A DNA stretch of 64,000 nucleotides from Tannerella forsythia (lineage in GTDB: Bacteria > Bacteroidota > Bacteroidia > Bacteroidales > Tannerellaceae): positions 1 to 64,000 of the forward strand of contig NZ_RQYN01000003.1 in NCBI RefSeq assembly GCF_003860135.1, read 5' to 3'. The notes below the pieces were generated by a model. The model saw nothing but the letters and a program-made list of their open reading frames with translations, made no database searches and was not told the origin of the DNA. This document shows, piece after piece, positions 15,164-26,944 of this stretch. The position numbers and the translations under genes are program-made. The stretch's first letter is position 1. Each line of letters starts with the position of its first letter.

Positions 15164-15413
15164 TTAATTCAGGCTTTCAGCCCTCCCAATTGGAATACGT
15201 CCTTTTTCCCCAACGCTTCGCATTGGGCTGAATTATTACGCCCTTTCAGGGCTCTTTCAGCAATCAGCGGAGCCAACAGATCAACGAATCAACAAATAAA
15301 CATCTCAACAATTCAACAACTCACCGCCTCTGCGGGGTTTATAAGGGCTGAAAGCCCGAATTATTTCAGCCTCGTCCCGCAAGGGTGGGATACCGAGTGA
15401 AGGCCTGAATTAA
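15164..15413. mobile_element. MITE-like palindromic repeat element
   Basis: About 250 bp bounded by perfect 11-bp terminal inverted repeats, TTAATTCAGGC at 15164-15174 and GCCTGAATTAA at 15403-15413. Inside are further inverted copies of GGCTTTCAGCCC/GGGCTGAAAGCC and small hairpins around CCCAACGCTTCGCATTGGG and CGCCCTTTCAGGGC. No coding region is credible: the open frame through it only follows the repeats. Similar pieces recur in Bacteroidetes genomes in my general recollection; copy number in this genome would settle its nature. Confidence 0.6.
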
Positions 15414-16627: not shown

Positions 16628-16885
16628 ATGGAAACACAGAATTTTTATTGCGAATATTGCGGAAAGCGGTATCCGAGTGTACAACAACTGACGAACGGAC
16701 TTTGCCCACGTCATCCGAACGGGGCTAACCGGGGGAAACATAAACTTTACGAAGGAGGTGAAAAGAAAAAATACACCTGCAAGCATTGCGGAAAGGAGTA
16801 TCCTACCATCGCTGCGATGGTGATCGGTCCCTGTCCCCGCCATCCTAAAGGAAGCAATCATGGCAAACACGCCCCGGCGTTGTGA
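16628..16885 (+). CDS. Small zinc-ribbon-like protein with two tandem repeats
   Basis: An 85-aa protein made of two similar halves of about 40 residues. Each has a Cys pair (CEYCGKRYPS and CKHCGKEYPT), then a CPRHP segment and a GxNxGKH ending. The two Cys-X2-Cys pairs plus Cys/His in CPRHP are suited to bind one zinc ion per repeat. No known function can be assigned. It starts 26 bp after the UDG-like gene and is followed after 38 bp by the first of two tiny paralogous proteins, so these short genes may form one transcript. Confidence 0.75.
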   Translation: METQNFYCEYCGKRYPSVQQLTNGLCPRHPNGANRGKHKLYEGGEKKKYTCKHCGKEYPTIAAMVIGPCPRHPKGSNHGKHAPAL

Positions 16886-16922
16886 GAAGGAAGAAATTAT
16901 TAATTGATTAAATAAAAATATT

Positions 16923-17063
16923 ATGGGAAAAAAATTTGAGAAAATAGGCGAATTTGCGACAAAGGGTTCTGAGTATGCCGAAAAAGGAACGGCGTTATTG
17001 CAAGCAGCGGCAGTGGTTACAGCCTTCATAGGCATGCTAGCTAAGATGCTTAGTAAAAAGTAA
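16923..17063 (+). CDS. Tiny protein, first of a homologous pair (46 aa)
   Basis: A 46-residue frame starting MGKKFEKIGEFATKGSEY, followed by AEKGTALLQAA, a hydrophobic stretch (AVVTAFIGMLAKML) and a Lys-Lys end. It shares most of its N-terminal 29 residues with the next small gene (17138-17284), although the nucleotide sequences have diverged. Conservation of the protein rather than the DNA is good evidence that both are translated. The layout, basic N terminus, amphipathic middle and hydrophobic C-terminal helix, suggests a membrane-associated peptide. No function is known to me. Confidence 0.7.
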   Translation: MGKKFEKIGEFATKGSEYAEKGTALLQAAAVVTAFIGMLAKMLSKK

Positions 17064-17137
17064 AAAGAAGTTATATTGATTAGGCTAATGGAATGAGTGT
17101 GTAAGAATAAAGTGTTAATTTATAAATAAAAAGTGTT

Positions 17138-17284
17138 ATGGGTAAAAAAATTGAGAAAATGGGACAATTTGCGACAAAAGGTTCTGAGTATGTTGAAAAG
17201 GGGGAGAAGTTGTTACAAGCAGCAACAATGCTTTTTTCCGCTGTTGGTGCATTCGCTGAGGCACTTACTAAAAACAAAAAGTAA
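17138..17284 (+). CDS. Tiny protein, second of a homologous pair (48 aa)
   Basis: A 48-residue paralogue of the preceding gene: MGKKIEKMGQFATKGSEY, then VEKGEKLLQAA, a hydrophobic stretch (TMLFSAVGAFAEAL) and a Lys-rich end. The C-terminal hydrophobic part keeps its character but not its sequence. Both genes are preceded by A-rich Bacteroidetes-type leaders without a strong Shine-Dalgarno. The gene is 74 bp from its twin and about 650 bp before the dynamin operon. It may be a membrane-active peptide, a phage-triggered effector or a small structural protein; these are guesses. Confidence 0.7.
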   Translation: MGKKIEKMGQFATKGSEYVEKGEKLLQAATMLFSAVGAFAEALTKNKK

Positions 17285-17430
17285 AAGAAGTTGTATTGGT
17301 ATTGTTAAGTTACTATAGTTTTTGAGAATATTGAAAATTTTAATACATTTATAATGAATGAGTTGTTGTTTGAATGAAATCAAAACTCTATATTAATTTA
17401 ACAATGCCGTTGTATTATGTAGAGGGTGTA

Positions 17431-17652
17431 TCAAAGCGTAATGTTTGGGCTGCAATCCTTTGGTTTAAATGAAACGATCAGATAAACGGCTAAAAACTGA
17501 AAAGCGTTTACAAGCAGATTCACTCTGGCGCAAAATGCTTTATATCCGGGTAGTTTGGGAAACCAACCGGTAAGATAATCCCGGGCAAAAGAATGGATTT
17601 CTTTTATACTGAAATATCTTTGCTCTGCGCCTGTAAAAAGATAAATGGTCAT
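17431..17652 (-). pseudogene. Truncated insertion-sequence transposase remnant
   Basis: The 73-residue frame contains FSIKEIHSFARDYLTGWFPKLPGYKAFCARVNLLV, which resembles the N-terminal helical region of IS982/IS4-type Bacteroidetes transposases (the LPSYQAF-type motif). The DDE catalytic region is absent. GAGGGTGTATCAAAG at 17422-17436 looks like an insertion-sequence end next to it. The remnant lies in the gap between the small-protein pair and the dynamin operon. I see no other gene in 17285-17939. Confidence 0.55.
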
Positions 17653-17899
17653 GATTTCTGATCTGTAAATTCGGGATTTGCATTGTTAGAGAATCGCTGA
17701 CAGGTCTCGAAAGAGTTCTTTTTCATACAAGTCGGACACGAAAAAATAGATGGAGATTAATTTTTGCTCTTTTTCCTTGTAGATCATACTTGGAATAATT
17801 AGTGGTATTTTTCTTCTAAGATGATGATTTTTAGGAAAATGAGCAAATGAAAAACAATTATTTTGCTGATTATAAACAAATTAATTTAACATTGAATTG

Positions 17900-17914
17900 A
17901 GAGTTTTCAACTCT
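17900..17914. promoter_or_regulatory. Short dyad upstream of the dynamin operon
   Basis: AGAGTT-TTC-AACTCT is a perfect 6-bp inverted repeat with a 3-nt spacer, 26 bp before the first dynamin start codon. It could be an operator or simply a small leader hairpin. No consensus -33/-7 promoter was recognised close to it. Confidence 0.25.
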
Positions 17915-17939
17915 GGATTCGCATTAGTATCATATTATC

Positions 17940-19760
17940 ATGGATAAGATTGAACAATTACGAAGCATTGCTGAATTTTTAGGTCTTAGCAATATTGCTA
18001 AGGAATTATCATTGATAGAACTGCGCTCAAAGCAGGAGAATGCAAATATCATTCTTCCTTTAGTGGGCGAGTTTAGTTCGGGTAAGACAACGCTTGTCAA
18101 TGCGTTGACAGATAGTAAAAGTCTGGAAAGTGCAACGAAGCCAACTACTGCAACCATCTATGAAGTACATTTTGGTTGTGACAGTTGTCGTGCAGAGGTG
18201 ATTGATGCAGATGGCAATCGTATAGAAGTTTCTGAGATAAGTGACTTGAAGAACGATGCGCTGGCAGATGCAAAGGTTGTAACCGTGTTCGATACATCTA
18301 CACGCGTATCTTCTTTTACTATCATTGTTGACACTCCGGGACTTTCTTCCCCTGATCCTAAGCACAGGCAAACCCTTGTGAATTTTCTTCCTAAGGCTGA
18401 TGGAATACTGCTCGTTACTGATATTAATCAGCAGATAACTCGTTCTCTGACAGATTTTATTGAGATGATTAAGTTGTCTCAACGACCTATTTATTTGGTG
18501 CTTACCAAAAGTGATACCAAATCAGAAGGAGATATCGAGTCAGCTAAGGCACACATTAGCAAGAGCTGTGAGATCCCCTTGAAACAGGTAGCTGTTGTAT
18601 CTGCTACAAAAAACTCACTTTCAGATTTATATTCTTTACTTGATACTATTCAGCATGAGAAAAAGGATATTTTGAGACGTGTCGATGAGCAACGCCTAAA
18701 AGATATTGCGAAGTTCATGGCTGATCGTATTGAGGATTTAATGTCAGCATCTTCTTCTGACAAGAATTTAGATGAAGCTATTCTGCAGAGTCAATCAGAG
18801 CTTAAGAGGATTAAGCGCAATATAGAGCGTCTTGTTGAGTCTTTGTCTGATGATATTTCAGAGCAGGAGCGTATTACTACGCGTAAGTTTGAAGATACAG
18901 TGTTCAATAAACTCAATACACTTGTAAAGGGTAAGAGTACTGATTTTGATAATGATGCGCTTATGGCAATCAATAGTACAGCATCTTTGTTAATGAATAG
19001 TTACAGAAATGGTGTGCAGAATGCTATCCGTGAGAAGGCAAACCGACAGAAAGGAACGGAAAATGAAATATCCTTGAGTTCATTGGAGAATATGGATCTT
19101 TCTAATATCCAAATGACTGGTCTGAGTTATAATATGGATTTGAATTCGATGGGACATGAATATGATCGCTGGATTAAGGTTGGTGTCATTGCTGCAGCAG
19201 CAATCGGTACTGTTGCTGTAGTTGCCTCAACTAGCGGTGTTGCTACTGTTTCCACAGCTGCAGAGGGTGCACTTGCTGGAAACAAAGCGATTGACGTTGT
19301 CGATACAGTGTCGGATGTGGGTAGTATTATTTCTAACAAAAGAACTGTTAACAGAATTGAAAAAGCAGTTGGTTTTGCTTCAAAGGCTGTTGATAAGTAC
19401 GAGACTATCGAGAATGGAGCTCAAAGGCTGTCTACAAGAGTTGGTAGTGATAAGGGGCTGATAGACTCTATGGTAGGTTTTGTTACAGATAAACTTCTCT
19501 CTAAGCCGCAGCGTATCCGTGCAATACGCAATTATATTGATTCGTCCTTGTCACCCGATTTCAAAAACAGACTGTGTGAGATTTCTCAACAACTTGTCAA
19601 TGCAGTAAGAGAATCTCTGGGCGAGGAGGCTACAGAATTGATTGGTCAGAAGACTGATGCCTTGAATCAGTTGAAGACTGAGCGTAAAGAACAGAAGGAG
19701 CAATTTGAGCAGAAAATGAGACAGTTACGTGGGTATAAAACGATGCTATTAACTTTATAA
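17940..19760 (+). CDS. Dynamin-like GTPase, first of three (606 aa)
   Basis: An N-terminal GTPase domain has G1 GEFSSGKT (43-50), a switch-I Thr in TKPTT (66-70), G3 DTPG (131-134) and G4 TKSD (189-192). Long helical segments follow. A hydrophobic patch of about 35 residues near 412-450 (VGVIAAAAIGTVAVVASTSG) is placed like the membrane-inserting paddle of bacterial dynamins, and the end is a coiled coil. Such proteins remodel or tether membranes with GTP. The gene leads an operon with a 6-bp gap to the next gene. The set resembles the LeoABC/Eleos dynamins in layout; a direct sequence relation is not shown here. Confidence 0.85.
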   Translation: MDKIEQLRSIAEFLGLSNIAKELSLIELRSKQENANIILPLVGEFSSGKTTLVNALTDSKSLESATKPTTATIYEVHFGCDSCRAEVIDADGNRIEVSEISDLKNDALADAKVVTVFDTSTRVSSFTIIVDTPGLSSPDPKHRQTLVNFLPKADGILLVTDINQQITRSLTDFIEMIKLSQRPIYLVLTKSDTKSEGDIESAKAHISKSCEIPLKQVAVVSATKNSLSDLYSLLDTIQHEKKDILRRVDEQRLKDIAKFMADRIEDLMSASSSDKNLDEAILQSQSELKRIKRNIERLVESLSDDISEQERITTRKFEDTVFNKLNTLVKGKSTDFDNDALMAINSTASLLMNSYRNGVQNAIREKANRQKGTENEISLSSLENMDLSNIQMTGLSYNMDLNSMGHEYDRWIKVGVIAAAAIGTVAVVASTSGVATVSTAAEGALAGNKAIDVVDTVSDVGSIISNKRTVNRIEKAVGFASKAVDKYETIENGAQRLSTRVGSDKGLIDSMVGFVTDKLLSKPQRIRAIRNYIDSSLSPDFKNRLCEISQQLVNAVRESLGEEATELIGQKTDALNQLKTERKEQKEQFEQKMRQLRGYKTMLLTL

Positions 19761-19766
19761 GATTAA

Positions 19767-20159
19767 ATGAAAATGATAGAATTGATTAGTGGGCTTGTCG
19801 TTGGTGGTATTGCTGGCGTAGCTCTTAAAGACAAAATTGTAGGTAATTCATCAAAGAATGATGCCAAACAGAGAGAACTGGATACGCTCTATGCTGAGAA
19901 TGAGAAGTTCCGTAAGCGTAACAAGGATGCCGAGCGGCAAATCGAAGACCTCCTCTCAGAGCTGGAAAAGGTTCGTAGAAAGGCAAAAGAGAATGATGAT
20001 GAACAAGACGACTTGGAGGATGAACTCAACAAAGCTAAACACGAGTTGAAGTCTCTCCGTCAACAGAATGATGATCTTGCACGTAAGGTCAAGGAATATA
20101 AAGATGCCTGTGAAGCCCAGGTTGCACAGATTTCTCTCATGAAGGAAAAGATGGGATAG
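19767..20159 (+). CDS. Small glycine-zipper/coiled-coil membrane protein
   Basis: A 130-aa protein with a Gly-rich hydrophobic N terminus (ELISGLVVGGIAGVALKDK, about residues 5-22) that fits a short membrane or hairpin segment, followed by a continuous charged coiled coil from about 30 to 128 (heptads in QIEDLLSELEKVRRK and later). It has no enzymatic motif. It lies between two dynamin-like genes, 6 bp after one and 1 bp before the other, so it is almost certainly translated with them. A role as scaffold or membrane tether for the GTPases is an inference. I do not know it as a standard part of bacterial dynamin operons. Confidence 0.75.
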   Translation: MKMIELISGLVVGGIAGVALKDKIVGNSSKNDAKQRELDTLYAENEKFRKRNKDAERQIEDLLSELEKVRRKAKENDDEQDDLEDELNKAKHELKSLRQQNDDLARKVKEYKDACEAQVAQISLMKEKMG

Positions 20160-20160
20160 C

Positions 20161-22059
20161 ATGGATACAACAATGCTCGTATGTGTCATTATAAATATTA
20201 TTATTGTCATCTTCCTTTGGATTTATTTTTCCAACAAGTCATCCAGCAGTAACACTTCTCAGTTAGAAATTGAAAATGAAGAACTGAAGAAAAAACTTGC
20301 AGAAACGGTTAAGAAGGTTCTTGACGACTCTGAATTGGAGGGCAAGATAGAAAAGATAGAGTCCAAATATCAGACTCTATTAAAGGAAGCCAATAACCAA
20401 TGTGAGCAACTTGATAAGCAGTTACAAAATGCTATTGATGGAAAGTTATATGATACTGTAAAGGAACAGTTAGCTCAGACTGAAAAACTGAAAAAGAAAA
20501 TCGAGGATCTTGAAAAAGAGATTGAAGACAATGAAGATGACATTTCAAACTTGAAAAAAAAGGTACGTTTGAAGGATGATGACATTGCTGAACTTCAAAA
20601 TAATCTTAGCAAGGAAAAGAAGAACGCGACAAGCCTGAGAGATGAACTCTCTTCTGTTTGTCAGTCGCTTGATGATAAGGTGGAAGAACTGAAACTCAAG
20701 ATGGGTTCTTTGGACTTCATTCAGGAAATTCTTTCGGCAAAGGAAATCAGTACGGAGGATACACGGAAACTGTATAAGCGTATTGATGCTTTTGAATCAT
20801 TTGTGAAAGGTTCATATACAGACTTAAACACCTTCCTCTTCAAGAGTTATGAAATGTCATGGAATGACTATAAAGGAGATAAAGCACTTGATGCAAAGAA
20901 GCAGTATATCATGGATAGTTGCGACCAGTGGACAGCTACAAAGCGTAAATGTTGGTTGGATGGTAAAACAACGATTGCCTTCGTGGGTGAGTTCTCTGCC
21001 GGTAAGACTTCTATAGTTAATAGAATTCTCTCCCAAGATAATCCGAATATTCCTAAACTGCCAGTAAGTACTAAGGCGACAACAGCCATTCCTACATATA
21101 TTGCAGGTGGTCTGGCTGTTTCGTATAGTTTTATTTCTGGTGATGGGAAACGTAAGGAGATTTTAGAAGGTACCTTCAAAAAAGTTTCAAAGGAGATTCT
21201 TGACCAAGTAAAGGGTGTTTCTTCTCTTATTAAGTACTTCGTGATGACTTATAAGAATCCTAATCTCAAAGGGTTAAGTATACTTGATACGCCAGGTTTT
21301 AATTCAAACGACAGTGAGGATCGTGAACGTACTATTGACATCATTAATGAGTGCGATGCGCTTTTCTGGGTGTTCGACGTGAATGCGGGTACAGTAAATC
21401 GTAGTTCTATTTCTATCATTAAGGAGAAACTCAATAAGCCGTTATATGTTGTGATTAATAAGGTAGACACTAAGTCTGAATCTGAGATACAGAAAGTGGA
21501 GAAACTTATTAAAAAGACCTTGGCAGACGAAGGACTGAAAGTGGAACAGTTTGTCAGATTTTCAGCTAAAACACCTATTGAGGATATTATGAATCCAATT
21601 CATAATGTTAAGAAGATTAAGTCTCGTGAGGCATTTATGTCTGATGTTAAAGAGGACTTAGACGAACTGTCAAGTATTTTTATAGGGCTTGTTGACGAGG
21701 GACAAAAGAAGTATAATAAATTGTATTATGATGGAGATAATCTTATTGAGGAAATTAATGAGAGTATCAATTTACTCCGCCAAAATTGTGAGCAACTCTG
21801 TGATATTCCGAGATGGGAAACCCATCTTTTTGGAAGCGATCGTTTTGAAATGTCAAAAGATGAATATAATGACTTTGTAGGCTTAATTGATCAAATATCA
21901 ATTGATAGGCTCAATGAAGTTATTCATAAAGTTAGTGACCGTATAGATAAGGCAAGTGATATTCAGCAGGAATGGTCTGATTTGTGTGATATTAAATCAG
22001 CATGGCAGAATATCAATGACTGCCTGGAACAATACAAGAAAGTAACAAAAGAATTGTAA
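20161..22059 (+). CDS. Membrane-anchored coiled-coil dynamin-like GTPase, second of three (632 aa)
   Basis: The N terminus is a membrane helix (MLVCVIINIIIVIFLWIYF, about residues 5-23), followed by a long coiled coil (about 33-185). The GTPase domain then has G1 GEFSAGKT (276-283), a Thr-rich switch (KATTAIPT, 305-312), G3 DTPG (376-379) and G4 NKVD (433-436). The C-terminal 170 residues are helical. Its topology is thus inverted compared with the first gene: anchor and stalk come before the G domain. It starts 1 bp after the coiled-coil gene. A 24-bp tandem duplication spans its stop codon. Confidence 0.85.
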   Translation: MDTTMLVCVIINIIIVIFLWIYFSNKSSSSNTSQLEIENEELKKKLAETVKKVLDDSELEGKIEKIESKYQTLLKEANNQCEQLDKQLQNAIDGKLYDTVKEQLAQTEKLKKKIEDLEKEIEDNEDDISNLKKKVRLKDDDIAELQNNLSKEKKNATSLRDELSSVCQSLDDKVEELKLKMGSLDFIQEILSAKEISTEDTRKLYKRIDAFESFVKGSYTDLNTFLFKSYEMSWNDYKGDKALDAKKQYIMDSCDQWTATKRKCWLDGKTTIAFVGEFSAGKTSIVNRILSQDNPNIPKLPVSTKATTAIPTYIAGGLAVSYSFISGDGKRKEILEGTFKKVSKEILDQVKGVSSLIKYFVMTYKNPNLKGLSILDTPGFNSNDSEDRERTIDIINECDALFWVFDVNAGTVNRSSISIIKEKLNKPLYVVINKVDTKSESEIQKVEKLIKKTLADEGLKVEQFVRFSAKTPIEDIMNPIHNVKKIKSREAFMSDVKEDLDELSSIFIGLVDEGQKKYNKLYYDGDNLIEEINESINLLRQNCEQLCDIPRWETHLFGSDRFEMSKDEYNDFVGLIDQISIDRLNEVIHKVSDRIDKASDIQQEWSDLCDIKSAWQNINDCLEQYKKVTKEL

Positions 22060-22086
22060 TATAAAGTAACAAAAGAAATGTAATAT
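22039..22086 (+). repeat. 24-bp tandem duplication across a gene junction
   Basis: 22039-22062 and 22063-22086 are the same 24-bp word with one difference (AAAGTAACAAAAGAA, then T or A, then TGTAATAT). The first copy holds the last codons and stop of the 632-aa gene; the second copy fills the spacer and ends exactly at the ATG of the 702-aa gene. Removing one copy would leave the two genes 3 bp apart. Confidence 0.9.
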
Positions 22087-24195
22087 ATGGAACACAATAT
22101 GTTTGAGGAGTTGCAAGTTAAGAAACATCAGCTCATTGAATTTGCAACGAAGGCTGTGGAATATGGATGGATTCCTGCAACAAAGGAGGCTACAGCTGGT
22201 AAAGGAATTATCTCTTTGGAAGAGATAAAAGAGAAAATAGAGAAGGATATACTGACGATTGGTGTAATCGGTCAGATGAAGTGTGGTAAGTCAACCTTCT
22301 TGAATTCCTTCGTCTTTAAGGATGACATTCTCCCTGCAGCTACTACACCTATGACCGCTGCACTTTCGGTTATCACGTATGGAGAGAAAGAGCGCATTGT
22401 TGCAGAGTTCTATACCGCAGATGAATGGGCAGAGCAGGAGATGCAAGCCTCTCGAAATGAGAGTGATGCTGTTGATACGCTTGATGCTTCAAAAATAAAG
22501 GCAGCAAAGGAATTGGTATCCAAGGCAAGCAAATTGGGCTCATCTCTGAATAGTTATCTCGGTAAAACGAAAGAGGACCGTTTTGACCAACTTATAGAGT
22601 ATGTTGGCGCTGACGGTAAGTATGTTTCCTTTACGAAATCTGTCACCATTTATTATCCTCATGAATATCTGAAGGGGGTTGAAGTGGTGGATACTCCGGG
22701 TTTCAATGATCCTATTGTTTCACGTGAAGAGCGTACCAAGGCTTTTCTTGCAAAGGCGGATGTTGTTATAATGATGCTTTATGCCGGTCGCCCGTTCGAT
22801 GCCACTGACAGGGATATTATTTTCAAGAATGTACGCCAGTGTGGTATAGGTAAAGTGCTTGTGGGTATCAATAAATATGATATTCCTTACTGTAGTGAGA
22901 CTAATCCTGAGGATGAAAACCAGATAAAAGATTATGTGAAGCAGGAGATTAGAAAGGCATGTCGCGAATGTAATGACAGTACGCTTGTTGAGATTCTTGA
23001 TGATATTGAGCCAATCCCATTGTCTGCCGAGATGGCCTTGCTGTCTGAATTGCCGATGAGTAAGATTAGTTCGATGGATAGTTTTGACTTTGCTTGGAAA
23101 CGTCATTGCTCTAACTTTGGCATCAGTACGCAGGACGAAATGTATAAGTGGAGTCATTTGGATGAGTTTATTAAAGCCGTACGGAATATGATAGACAATG
23201 AGAAGGGTAAGATTCTTTTTGCAAAGCCACTGAATGCGATTCTTGCTGCCGGAGACAAATTGAAGTCGGATAATGAGAATGCAATCAATTTGCTGTCTAA
23301 TGAGATTACACTCCTTTCTGCGCCCGATTCTGAACTTGATGAAAGAGAAGAACAGCTGGCAAAGGCTGATAGAAAAATCTCTAGGAAAATCAATTCTCTG
23401 GGAGAGGATCTTGATGCAGAAATTCGTAATCTTGTAAGAAAAGGTGGTAATGAATTGGAGGACCTTGTGGATGCTTCATGTAACCGAATGCTAAATATCG
23501 TTCAGAATGAATGGGGACGTTTAAAGAATGTTAAGAGTATACTACCAAGACTTGAAGGGGAATTGCAGAGTCTAACAACAAGGAAACTGAAGCGTGCCAC
23601 AGAGCAACTTTCCGACGAAGGTGAAAGGAAGTTGAAGCGAAGTGTTGCTGATTTCTTCTCTGATGCAGAAGAAATCTTGTTGAGGTATTTGCCTGATTTC
23701 GATTCTCGTTATTTTATAAAGTCCACTCAGAATAGAATGAACATGGAGATGGAAAAGAGTGATTTGTTCTCTTCTGAGTCTGACACAGAAGAAGAAGTTA
23801 CTTGGGGAGATGTTATTGGCGAAATCTGTGGCGGATTCCTTAATGGAGCAACATTCGGTATTTGGGAAAAAACGATGAACGTTTTCTCTCATGGCGATAA
23901 TGTAGCTCAGATTTCTGATTATATTAATTCTTTAAGCAGAGATTTTGATCCAGAACCTTATCTTAAGCATGCTTTCAAGAGCAAGGACAAAATTATAGAG
24001 TTTGTACGTAGTCGTTTTGTTAAGGAGCTAATCGAACCACTTAGAGAACAACTAACAAGAGTCCGTTCTCAAAAAGAAAATAAGGAAAAACAACTGCATA
24101 ACGCAGAGGAGAAGCGGAAAAAGCTGGAAGAGAAAAAAGCACTTATCACCGCGCAGGTACAAGAACTTGCTGGGCTGAAATTGACAGTTCTATAA
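22087..24195 (+). CDS. Dynamin-like GTPase, third of three (702 aa)
   Basis: The GTPase domain has G1 GQMKCGKS (62-69), Thr residues in AATTPMTA (85-92) as switch I, G3 DTPG (202-205) and G4 NKYD (262-265). The MKxGKST form of the P-loop is shared with CrfC/YjdA- and LeoA-type bacterial dynamins. A long helical stalk follows, with a moderately hydrophobic patch near 582-600 (GEICGGFLNGATFGIWEK) and a coiled coil at the C terminus (about 655-690). It lacks an N-terminal membrane helix. It is the last gene of the operon, 27 bp after the second GTPase because of the 24-bp duplication. Its partners suggest a hetero-oligomeric membrane-remodelling machine. Confidence 0.85.
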   Translation: MEHNMFEELQVKKHQLIEFATKAVEYGWIPATKEATAGKGIISLEEIKEKIEKDILTIGVIGQMKCGKSTFLNSFVFKDDILPAATTPMTAALSVITYGEKERIVAEFYTADEWAEQEMQASRNESDAVDTLDASKIKAAKELVSKASKLGSSLNSYLGKTKEDRFDQLIEYVGADGKYVSFTKSVTIYYPHEYLKGVEVVDTPGFNDPIVSREERTKAFLAKADVVIMMLYAGRPFDATDRDIIFKNVRQCGIGKVLVGINKYDIPYCSETNPEDENQIKDYVKQEIRKACRECNDSTLVEILDDIEPIPLSAEMALLSELPMSKISSMDSFDFAWKRHCSNFGISTQDEMYKWSHLDEFIKAVRNMIDNEKGKILFAKPLNAILAAGDKLKSDNENAINLLSNEITLLSAPDSELDEREEQLAKADRKISRKINSLGEDLDAEIRNLVRKGGNELEDLVDASCNRMLNIVQNEWGRLKNVKSILPRLEGELQSLTTRKLKRATEQLSDEGERKLKRSVADFFSDAEEILLRYLPDFDSRYFIKSTQNRMNMEMEKSDLFSSESDTEEEVTWGDVIGEICGGFLNGATFGIWEKTMNVFSHGDNVAQISDYINSLSRDFDPEPYLKHAFKSKDKIIEFVRSRFVKELIEPLREQLTRVRSQKENKEKQLHNAEEKRKKLEEKKALITAQVQELAGLKLTVL

Positions 24196-24261
24196 TGCTT
24201 TATTTACAGAGGTAATAATGTTCTGAAAGCACACACTACTTATTCTACCATACTTCTTTAA

Positions 24262-24396
24262 AGTTTAATATGTATTGTTAAAGTAGATAATATCGTCAAG
24301 CCAGCAGAGAAAATTCATCTGTTTAAGATAGCTCTTAACTTAGGATTTGACAAAGAGATTATTAAAGAAATGCTTGAAAGTTCTGATCATAAGTGA
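24262..24396 (+). pseudogene. Short gene remnant without a start
   Basis: A frame open for 44 codons ends in a plausible protein-like segment (KPAEKIHLFKIALNLGFDKE ... EMLESSDHK) but has no ATG. It lies between the dynamin operon and the FRG gene and looks like the 3' end of a lost gene. The parent family is not recognised. Confidence 0.3.
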
Positions 24397-24477
24397 TTTG
24401 ACTAAGGGCATAGAAAAGAAACAATAAAACAGAAATATTGTATTTTAAACGGTTAAATAATTAAGACAGATAAAAAA

Positions 24478-25341
24478 ATGGGAACTGAGAAAATTGATAG
24501 CGTTCAAAAGCTATTAGACATTGTAGGCAGACTTGATGTGGAAGAAGATGAAGTTCTTCTTTATCGAGGGAATAATGGAATGAAAAAAAATAAAGAAATA
24601 TTGCCTTCAATATATTATAGAGGAGAAAACGGAAAGAGTTCTATCGAAAAAGAAGATAAACTTTATTGGGAAATTCTCAGATTATTGCCTGCTGAATTCG
24701 GTGATTCTAAATCGACATTCGATAATCTTGTTAAAATGAGACATTATACTCTACCTACAAGATTGTTAGACATAACTTATAATCCACTGGTTTCACTTTA
24801 TTTTAGCTGTGGAAGAAATAATGAAGGAAATAATGGAGAATTGATTGTCTTTAAAATCAAAAAAAATGACATCAAAAATTACGATAGTGACACAGTTAGT
24901 ATATTGTCAAATTTATGTAAACGTCCATTTGATTTTACTTTGCCAGAAATATCTTCTTTTTCAGACGCTAATGATCGGAAAAAACAATTTAATGAAGATC
25001 ATTCCATAGAACTTCTTCTTCATGATATAAGATCAGAGAAGCCTCATTTTAAGGCTCTAATAGAGCCGGAAGACCTTGCTCGAGTTGTTTGTGTAAATCC
25101 AAAACTTACGAATGAGAGACTGATCCGTCAAAGCGGAGCATTCTTACTCTTTGGCATAGATAAAAAGAAAGAAGAGCCGGCAAAAATAGATAATAGCTTA
25201 GTCGCTGCTAGAATAGAAGTTGAAAAATGTAAAAAAGAAGAGATTTTAAAACAGTTGTCACAAGTAAATATAACCGAAGCGACATTATTTCCAGAATTAG
25301 AAAATGTAACCCAATATTTGTTGAAAGAATTTCTTAGATAA
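24478..25341 (+). CDS. FRG-domain protein
   Basis: A 287-aa protein with the FRG pattern: LLYRGNN near residue 28, then MRHYTLPTRLLDITYNPLV (87-105) and SLYFSC, and NERLIRQSGAFLLFG late in the protein. FRG domains are widespread in prophages and anti-phage islands, sometimes fused to other effectors; the biochemical activity is not well settled. No fused domain is seen, only a C-terminal helical extension. The gene is markedly A+T-rich compared with its surroundings, a sign of horizontal acquisition. Its separate leader (about 280 bp after the dynamins) suggests its own transcript. Confidence 0.82.
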   Translation: MGTEKIDSVQKLLDIVGRLDVEEDEVLLYRGNNGMKKNKEILPSIYYRGENGKSSIEKEDKLYWEILRLLPAEFGDSKSTFDNLVKMRHYTLPTRLLDITYNPLVSLYFSCGRNNEGNNGELIVFKIKKNDIKNYDSDTVSILSNLCKRPFDFTLPEISSFSDANDRKKQFNEDHSIELLLHDIRSEKPHFKALIEPEDLARVVCVNPKLTNERLIRQSGAFLLFGIDKKKEEPAKIDNSLVAARIEVEKCKKEEILKQLSQVNITEATLFPELENVTQYLLKEFLR

Positions 25342-25438
25342 CAAAGAATCATTCTGCCCCTCTGCGGGTTTTCTGCGTAGCTTATATGTAATTTTGCGGC
25401 ATCGATAAGGACAAAATATAATAGATAAAAGAATATAG

Positions 25439-25993
25439 ATGACTGAAAAAGAACAAATAGTTACTGCGGAGAGCCGTTCGCTGCATGAGGTCGTGGCGGA
25501 TTATAGTTATGCGTTGGACCTGTTGGATCAGTACGACTACCGTACAATCGAGGTGGAGGCCGTGAGCGGTCTCCCTCGGTTTCGCGCTACGTACGAGGGG
25601 GCGATGGAAGCCATTCGCAGCTTGAAAGAGCGGTTTGGGGGCAGCCCGCTGTTCGGCAACGAGAAAGACGGGTCGTTTCGAAGCTCTATCGGGCAGATTT
25701 ATCAGACGTTCGACGACCGGGAGCTTTACCCCTCAGCCGAAGAGAAGGCGGCCATGCTGCTCTATCTGGTAGTGAAGAACCATTCGTTCAGCGATGGCAA
25801 CAAACGCATTGCCGCGATGCTGTTTCTGTGGTTTATGCATCACAACGGCCTGCTCTACCGAACGGATGGCAGGAAGCGTATCGCGGACAATACGTTGGTG
25901 GCGCTTACGCTGATGATCGCATGCAGTCCCGCCGAGGAGAAAGACCTGATGGTGCGACTGACGGTCTGCCTGATCAACACAAACAATCAATAA
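25439..25993 (+). CDS. Fic/Doc-family protein
   Basis: The 184-aa protein has a complete Fic-type loop, HSFSDGNKRIAA starting at His115, embedded in the usual helices; the Lys in GNKR is of the Doc type. Fic enzymes attach AMP or other nucleotides to targets, while Doc phosphorylates EF-Tu. Full-length RhuM-type proteins carry a longer DNA-binding N terminus; here only the Fic half with a short helical leader exists, so this may be a natural short form or a truncation. No separate antitoxin gene is evident. A WYL regulator follows 30 bp later. Confidence 0.8.
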   Translation: MTEKEQIVTAESRSLHEVVADYSYALDLLDQYDYRTIEVEAVSGLPRFRATYEGAMEAIRSLKERFGGSPLFGNEKDGSFRSSIGQIYQTFDDRELYPSAEEKAAMLLYLVVKNHSFSDGNKRIAAMLFLWFMHHNGLLYRTDGRKRIADNTLVALTLMIACSPAEEKDLMVRLTVCLINTNNQ

Positions 25994-26023: not shown

Positions 26024-26944
26024 ATGGCAAAGCATCAATTTCGGAAATACATCTGGATCATCGACCGGCTCTACCGTACGGGAGGTATCACGTACAAAGA
26101 GCTGGCGGAGGCGTGGAAAAACTGTTCGCTGAACGACGAAGGCCGGCCGTTGCCCAAGCGTACGTTCGACGATTACAAGCGGGCTATCGAAGAGACATTC
26201 GACCTCAATATCATCTGTAATGCGAGCAACGGCTATACCTATCGTATCGAAAATACGGACGACATCAGCAAAGATCATATCAAGAGCTGGTTGTTGAGTT
26301 CGTTTGCGGTCAACAACATCATTCAGGAGAGTCGCAAGCTCAAAGCGCGCATCCTGTTTGAGCGTATCCCTTCGGGCAATGAATCGCTGATGACTATCAT
26401 CGAGGCGATGCAGACCGATAGACGCCTGCAAATGACGTATCAAAGTTTTCATTGTGAGCGTCCCCGAACATTTCTGGCCGATCCGTACTGTGTAAAAGTG
26501 AGCCGGCAACGCTGGTATGTCGTGGTATTCGAGCCGGAGAACGGACAAATACGTACATACGCCTTAGACCGGATGAAACGGATAGAACCGACGAGGGAAT
26601 CGTTCGTCTTCCCCGACACGTTTGATGCGGAGACATATTTTGCCGATGCTTTCGGGGTGATTGTCATCCCCGAAGAGTTGGATGTGGAAACGATCCGTCT
26701 GAAAGTTTCCGAAGCGGGTAACAAACGCAAGTATTTCGATTCCTTGCCGCTGCACCCTTCGCAGAGAGAGGTGGAACGTTATCCGGAATATTCCGTCTTC
26801 GAATACCGGCTCTATCCGACGTACGACTTCTTTCAGGAAGTCCTCTCGCATGGTGCCGAAGTCGAGCTTCTCTCGCCCGAATGGGTACGAGGCGAGCTCC
26901 GTTACATGGTCGAAGAAATGCACGCACTGTACCGGAAGAAGTAG
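26024..26944 (+). CDS. WYL-domain transcriptional regulator
   Basis: A 306-aa protein with an N-terminal helix-turn-helix region (about 1-75, including GGITYKELAEAW and KRTFDDYKRAIEE) and a WYL domain (about 125-220, with FLADPYCVKVSRQRWYVV and TYALDRMKRIEPT), followed by a C-terminal extension region (FFQEVLSHGAEVELLSPEWV). WYL proteins bind nucleotide or nucleic-acid ligands and often control defence or DNA-repair genes. Its place at the right edge of the island makes it a candidate regulator of the neighbouring genes. Nothing gene-like is seen in 26945-27285. Confidence 0.88.
   Translation: MAKHQFRKYIWIIDRLYRTGGITYKELAEAWKNCSLNDEGRPLPKRTFDDYKRAIEETFDLNIICNASNGYTYRIENTDDISKDHIKSWLLSSFAVNNIIQESRKLKARILFERIPSGNESLMTIIEAMQTDRRLQMTYQSFHCERPRTFLADPYCVKVSRQRWYVVVFEPENGQIRTYALDRMKRIEPTRESFVFPDTFDAETYFADAFGVIVIPEELDVETIRLKVSEAGNKRKYFDSLPLHPSQREVERYPEYSVFEYRLYPTYDFFQEVLSHGAEVELLSPEWVRGELRYMVEEMHALYRKK

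Follow-up and report, generated by a model that had tools for sequence, protein, structure and literature searches.

Most of the bacterial dynamins that are known come in pairs. In LeoABC, LeoC and LeoB together make up a single dynamin, and this system therefore contains two GTPases (PMC4159319), encoded as LeoA plus a split or fused LeoBC in the Eleos/LeoABC arrangement. The Campylobacter jejuni Cj-DLP1 and Cj-DLP2 proteins, encoded as a pair in one operon with an HcpA-like gene, form a 2:2 tetramer, exhibit tetramer-triggered GTPase activity and tether liposomes (PMC6104087). In the Bacillus subtilis DynA protein two dynamins are fused in one chain, and the fusion acts at the membrane to delay phage lysis (PMC8844932).

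The locus considered here lies in a 64,000-nucleotide stretch of DNA from Tannerella forsythia, a bacterium of the mouth (contig NZ_RQYN01000003.1, positions 1 to 64,000), the whole of which is referred to as the window. It contains four consecutive + strand open reading frames, D1-CC-D2-D3, lying 6, 1 and 27 bp apart and predicted to encode the following products:

17940..19760, + strand: D1, a dynamin-like GTPase of 606 residues that contains a hydrophobic paddle internally (nearest in fold to IniA, BDLP and Cj-DLP2)
19173..19229, + strand: D1 hydrophobic segment, residues 412-430, a putative membrane paddle (Kyte-Doolittle 2.06)
19767..20159, + strand: CC, 130 residues, an N-terminal Gly-rich hydrophobic helix plus a coiled coil
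19776..19826, + strand: CC hydrophobic anchor, residues 4-20, a Gly-rich helix (Kyte-Doolittle 2.07)
20161..22059, + strand: D2, a 632-residue dynamin-like GTPase with an N-terminal membrane helix and a long coil before the G domain
20173..20229, + strand: D2 N-terminal membrane helix, residues 5-23 (Kyte-Doolittle 2.95)
20260..20943, + strand: D2 helical stalk (residues 34-261), in which the longest helix predicted spans 97-192
20968..21603, + strand: D2 G domain, residues 270-481 (Dynamin_N match and structure model)
22087..24195, + strand: D3, a 702-residue dynamin-like GTPase and sequence relative of Cj-DLP1 and BDLP1

The GC content of the operon is 0.39, compared to 0.47-0.48 in its surroundings; a promoter scan of the locus gave matches at chance level, and a terminator scan was close to chance. 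The window operon encodes three complete GTPases, with CC as the sole non-GTPase subunit: D1, D2 and D3 score 66.8, 61.8 and 74.2 bits against the Pfam Dynamin_N profile (PF00350; curated cut-off 27), and their G domains carry the P-loop, DxxG and (N/T)KxD motifs of the dynamin superfamily. The P-loops of the three proteins are distinct (GEFSSGKT, GEFSAGKT and GQMKCGKS) and each is invariant within its own family in alignments of Bacteroidales sequences (eight for D1, nine each for D2 and D3), as are DTPG (residues 131-134 of D1, 376-379 of D2 and 202-205 of D3) and the TK.D/NK.D motif.

The four proteins also have different predicted topologies. The D1 hydrophobic segment is single and C-terminal to the G domain, within a low-confidence region of the structure model (residues 398-521). 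In D2, ~190 residues that are mostly predicted helix separate the G domain from the membrane helix, which was found in every Bacteroidales D2 tested (the D2 C-terminus is shorter in Bacteroides heparinolyticus). By Kyte-Doolittle analysis, D3 has no membrane helix or hydrophobic segment. Residues 28-128 of CC are heptad-periodic, with hydrophobic residues recurring every 3.5 positions as in a coiled coil, and the profile matches of this protein are to coiled-coil families only. In the D1 and D2 models helices flank the G domain on either side, as in the dynamin helical neck and trunk, and their fold searches returned BDLP, IniA, Cj-DLP2 and mitofusin at E values of ~1e-10 to 1e-13, a match which holds only at the superfamily level given the modest model confidence (mean pLDDT of 78.9 and 69.7) and TM-scores of about 0.3. 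An earlier note on this DNA had given the coordinates, strand, lengths and gaps of these genes exactly, and its description of three dynamin-like GTPases with distinct P-loops, of an internal hydrophobic segment in D1, an N-terminal helix plus stalk in D2 and no anchor in D3, and of a Gly-zipper followed by a coiled coil in the fourth protein agrees with these analyses.

The order D1-CC-D2-D3 is identical in the window and in at least eight further Bacteroidales loci, a recurrence far beyond chance. The loci came from a D2 search (3, counting the window) and from a genome-collection scan (T. forsythia ATCC 43037 and at least 5 more genomes) which relied on two peptide patterns only; further copies of the four-gene operon probably exist beyond the nine listed. 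All nine have CC between D1 and D2, and the grouping that the earlier note had proposed, and had wished to see surveyed across gene neighborhoods, is a real conserved unit. Outside Tannerella, identity to the window proteins is 43-59% for D1, 43-64% for CC, 42-63% for D2 and 55-67% for D3, and the flanking genes differ between genera. The operon is also rare: among 393 Bacteroidales genomes, 3 (the window's own included) encode full-length D2, and D3 was seen in 2 of 396 genomes of the phylum, both copies within triple operons. Relatives of D1, D2 and D3 were sought on viral contigs and none was found, and a D3 search of phage records gave no match.

The earlier note had regarded LeoABC/Eleos as the nearest known arrangement, a proposal which is not borne out. 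There is a likeness, since both have tandem dynamin GTPase genes, D1, D2 and D3 all match PADLOC models for LeoA and LeoBC (1e-9 to 5e-21), and D3 is similar to LeoBC over nearly its full length, so a divergent Eleos (LeoA plus LeoBC) that has acquired an extra gene or two was considered. However, the scores of the window proteins with the Leo models are 34-74 bits (best scores 50.5 for D1, 39.0 for D2 and 73.5 for D3), well below the 263 bits (LeoBC) and 332 bits (LeoA) reached by a control LeoBC-LeoA pair (L044) on its own models; the GTPases number three rather than two; Eleos has no coiled-coil subunit; and the D families lie apart from the control pair in a G-domain tree. Eleos membership was rejected on gene number and scores, and a divergent Eleos is a very improbable description of this operon. 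In keeping with the novelty that the earlier note had claimed, no named system that matches the four genes one to one was found.

Other described dynamins resemble parts of the operon. The D3 profile matches Cj-DLP1 at 1.7e-14 over Cj-DLP1 residues 145-707 and also matches BDLP1; a D1 orthologue matches Cj-DLP2 at 8.2e-11, whereas the profile of the window D1 itself gave no Cj-DLP2 match within E <= 0.01, and the D2 profile matches Cj-DLP2 weakly. Cj-DLP1/Cj-DLP2 is a model for heterotypic tethering, but it comprises two proteins only, without D2 or CC. DynA likewise is a multi-GTPase dynamin that acts at the membrane, but it has no anchored coil protein.

By homology, the nearest relatives of the Tannerella operon are unnamed three-dynamin operons, plasmid and chromosomal, that lack CC. 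Translated searches identified three-dynamin rows on plasmids of E. coli/E. albertii (IncF), Pseudomonas aeruginosa, Calditerrivibrio and Photobacterium, and reading of open reading frames revealed another on a Moraxella plasmid, the plasmid loci outside Bacteroidales having been chosen for comparison because they hold dynamin genes. A Bacteroidota genome of another class (L022) has the order D1-D2-TerB/beta-helix protein-525-aa protein-D3. In these operons orthologous D1, D2 and D3, one per clade, lie close together as in the window, but the order is often D1-D3-D2, other accessory genes are present, and the N-terminal membrane helix is missing from D2, as in some cases is the coil. Since CC is absent from all of these operons, the third GTPase is general, with only CC and the D2 membrane anchor special to Bacteroidales. 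The literature searched, which took in few subscription papers, contained no account of a bacterial operon with three dynamins, so an earlier description is possible.

A tree of the G domains of 13 loci, which represent three phyla, resolves one group each for D1 (support 90/87), D2 (95/91) and D3 (99/95), every group holding one member from each locus, and the sub-pairs L019+L020 and L018+L022 recur in all three groups. When the Eleos controls and other dynamins were added the three groups were retained, with D1 support down to 89/20. The simplest reading of this tree is an old trio that was inherited together, and the window operon, with one member of each clade side by side, would be one such trio. 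Rows of three dynamins in Lysinibacillus and four in Ruegeria are outside the tree. A D2-like GTPase in genome G368 (L023) was rejected as a trio member, as it is surrounded by unrelated genes. For the 525-aa protein between D2 and D3 (L022:8296-9873), a SIR2-like reading was discarded because it rested on motifs seen by eye, which Pfam, PADLOC and PDB did not back. A gene for an 829-aa CFI-box-CTERM protein (L049:12582-15071; no Pfam match) comes after the trio on the E. coli plasmid, with an overlap of a few bases, and is probably the fourth gene of that operon.

In T. forsythia the operon occupies a hot spot, the features of which are:

16896..25349, no strand: variable hot-spot segment with the dynamin cassette, an FRG gene and two small open reading frames, replaced in Tannerella G786
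24478..25341, + strand: neighboring FRG-domain protein (PADLOC PDC-S15), missing at the ATCC 43037 site
25439..25993, + strand: flanking Fic/DOC protein (PADLOC PDC-S23)
26024..26944, + strand: flanking WYL/WCX transcriptional regulator (profile matches)

In Tannerella G786 the same flanks (left to window position 16896, right from 25349) enclose a different 3.9-kb cassette of six genes (L033:5094-8938; GC 0.32), one encoding an AAA+ ATPase and the others without clear family matches; this is a candidate undescribed defense cassette. In ATCC 43037 these flanks enclose the operon but no FRG gene, and its D1 is broken by insertion of a DDE transposase gene (L009:6932-7900), so this copy is probably not fully functional. 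Third-codon identity between the window and ATCC 43037 is 94-97% for the operon genes and 82-87% for the Fic and WYL genes, so the operon moved after the flanks diverged. By these comparisons, the four-gene operon behaves as a mobile, swappable cassette.

Several small features also surround the operon. Two tandemly duplicated open reading frames upstream of it (16923-17063 and 17138-17284; 46 and 48 aa, of the MGKKFEKIGEFATKGSEY... type) share 77% nucleotide identity over 137 nt, encode a hydrophobic stretch towards the C-terminus and are absent at the same site in two other Tannerella genomes. A small protein carrying two repeats that resemble zinc fingers (16628-16885) flanks the operon, and a 47.5% identical relative is encoded near the Calditerrivibrio plasmid trio (L019:10100-10339). 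The Rfam Acido-Lenti-1 RNA model matches window positions 15209-15253 (+ strand) at 40.4 bits (gathering threshold 37).

The dynamin operons are found in mobile or defense-rich loci. In the window the company consists of the FRG, Fic and WYL genes; at other loci AbiEii or a PDC-S27 ATPase is encoded close by, a WYL gene is immediately upstream of a P. aeruginosa homologue, and a second Pseudomonas record has the homologue on one stretch with ZorA (Zorya) and restriction-modification genes. The neighboring defense genes vary and are not conserved across loci, and these surroundings are a circumstantial sign of an anti-phage role, location in a hot spot being no proof of defense. DefenseFinder-called dynamins of a Pseudomonas fluorescens element were inactive against the phages tested (PMC12595487); for the three-dynamin family, no phage experiment was found in the literature.

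What sequence comparison establishes is that there are three complete GTPases of separate, seemingly old families, together with their strict co-occurrence, gene order, predicted anchors and cassette exchange. There is a somewhat better than even chance that the four genes constitute a single cassette, moving horizontally, for a membrane-acting machine of three specialized dynamins plus an anchored coiled-coil subunit. Because the trio is shared by very different bacteria and often lies beside phage-defense genes, it is probably an undescribed membrane-based defense system, and the operon most likely encodes a machine for membrane tethering or repair that acts against phages. By analogy to Cj-DLP1/2 (PMC6104087) and DynA (PMC8844932), its product may be a hetero-oligomeric tether between membranes, as the earlier note had suggested. 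The Cj-DLP1-like D3 and the Cj-DLP2-like D1, with its paddle, would form a lipid-binding, membrane-bridging core; D2 and CC, with their N-terminal helices in the inner membrane and coils extending into the cytoplasm, would keep this core near the membrane and provide reach or regulation. Membrane damage at phage entry or lysis would then trigger GTP-driven assembly, which would patch or tether the membrane and, as has been reported for Bacillus DynA, delay or limit phage release; suicidal membrane action is an alternative output. The more specific proposal of an undescribed anti-phage class, in which three non-interchangeable dynamins form a hetero-oligomeric tether or repair machine on a Bacteroidales scaffold of the D2 coil and CC at the inner membrane, is tentative and falls a little short of an even chance.

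Functions other than tethering or repair during infection were weighed against the same data. An envelope maintenance or vesicle machine, which would serve to repair membranes, tolerate antibiotics or release outer-membrane vesicles and have no specific part in phage resistance, would be in line with the ties of LeoABC to vesicle secretion (PMC4159319) and of DynA to membrane surveillance (PMC8844932), and the anchor-plus-coil layouts of D2 and CC have weak matches to EzrA and ZapG. The patchy distribution, cassette swapping and recent exchange, plasmid and defense-gene settings, and the transposase gene that breaks D1 in ATCC 43037 are instead suited to an accessory trait, and a machine of this kind is considered unlikely, at roughly one chance in five.

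An abortive system would sense infection and disrupt the inner membrane, killing the infected cell. Partners of abortive systems often vary, as do the accessory genes of the triple operons (for example, the TerB/beta-helix and 525-aa proteins of L022 or the 829-aa protein of E. coli). However, no pore-forming or enzymatic effector domain was recognized in the window operon by Pfam and PADLOC profile searches, leaving CC as its only non-GTPase component, and such suicidal action is judged more doubtful still.

The operon is a new variant among multi-dynamin systems. It may represent a new membrane-level phage defense, one which annotation tools could mislabel as Eleos. In addition, a trio that is kept across three phyla, together with an anchored subunit in Bacteroidales, offers a direct route to the division of labor in hetero-oligomeric dynamins.
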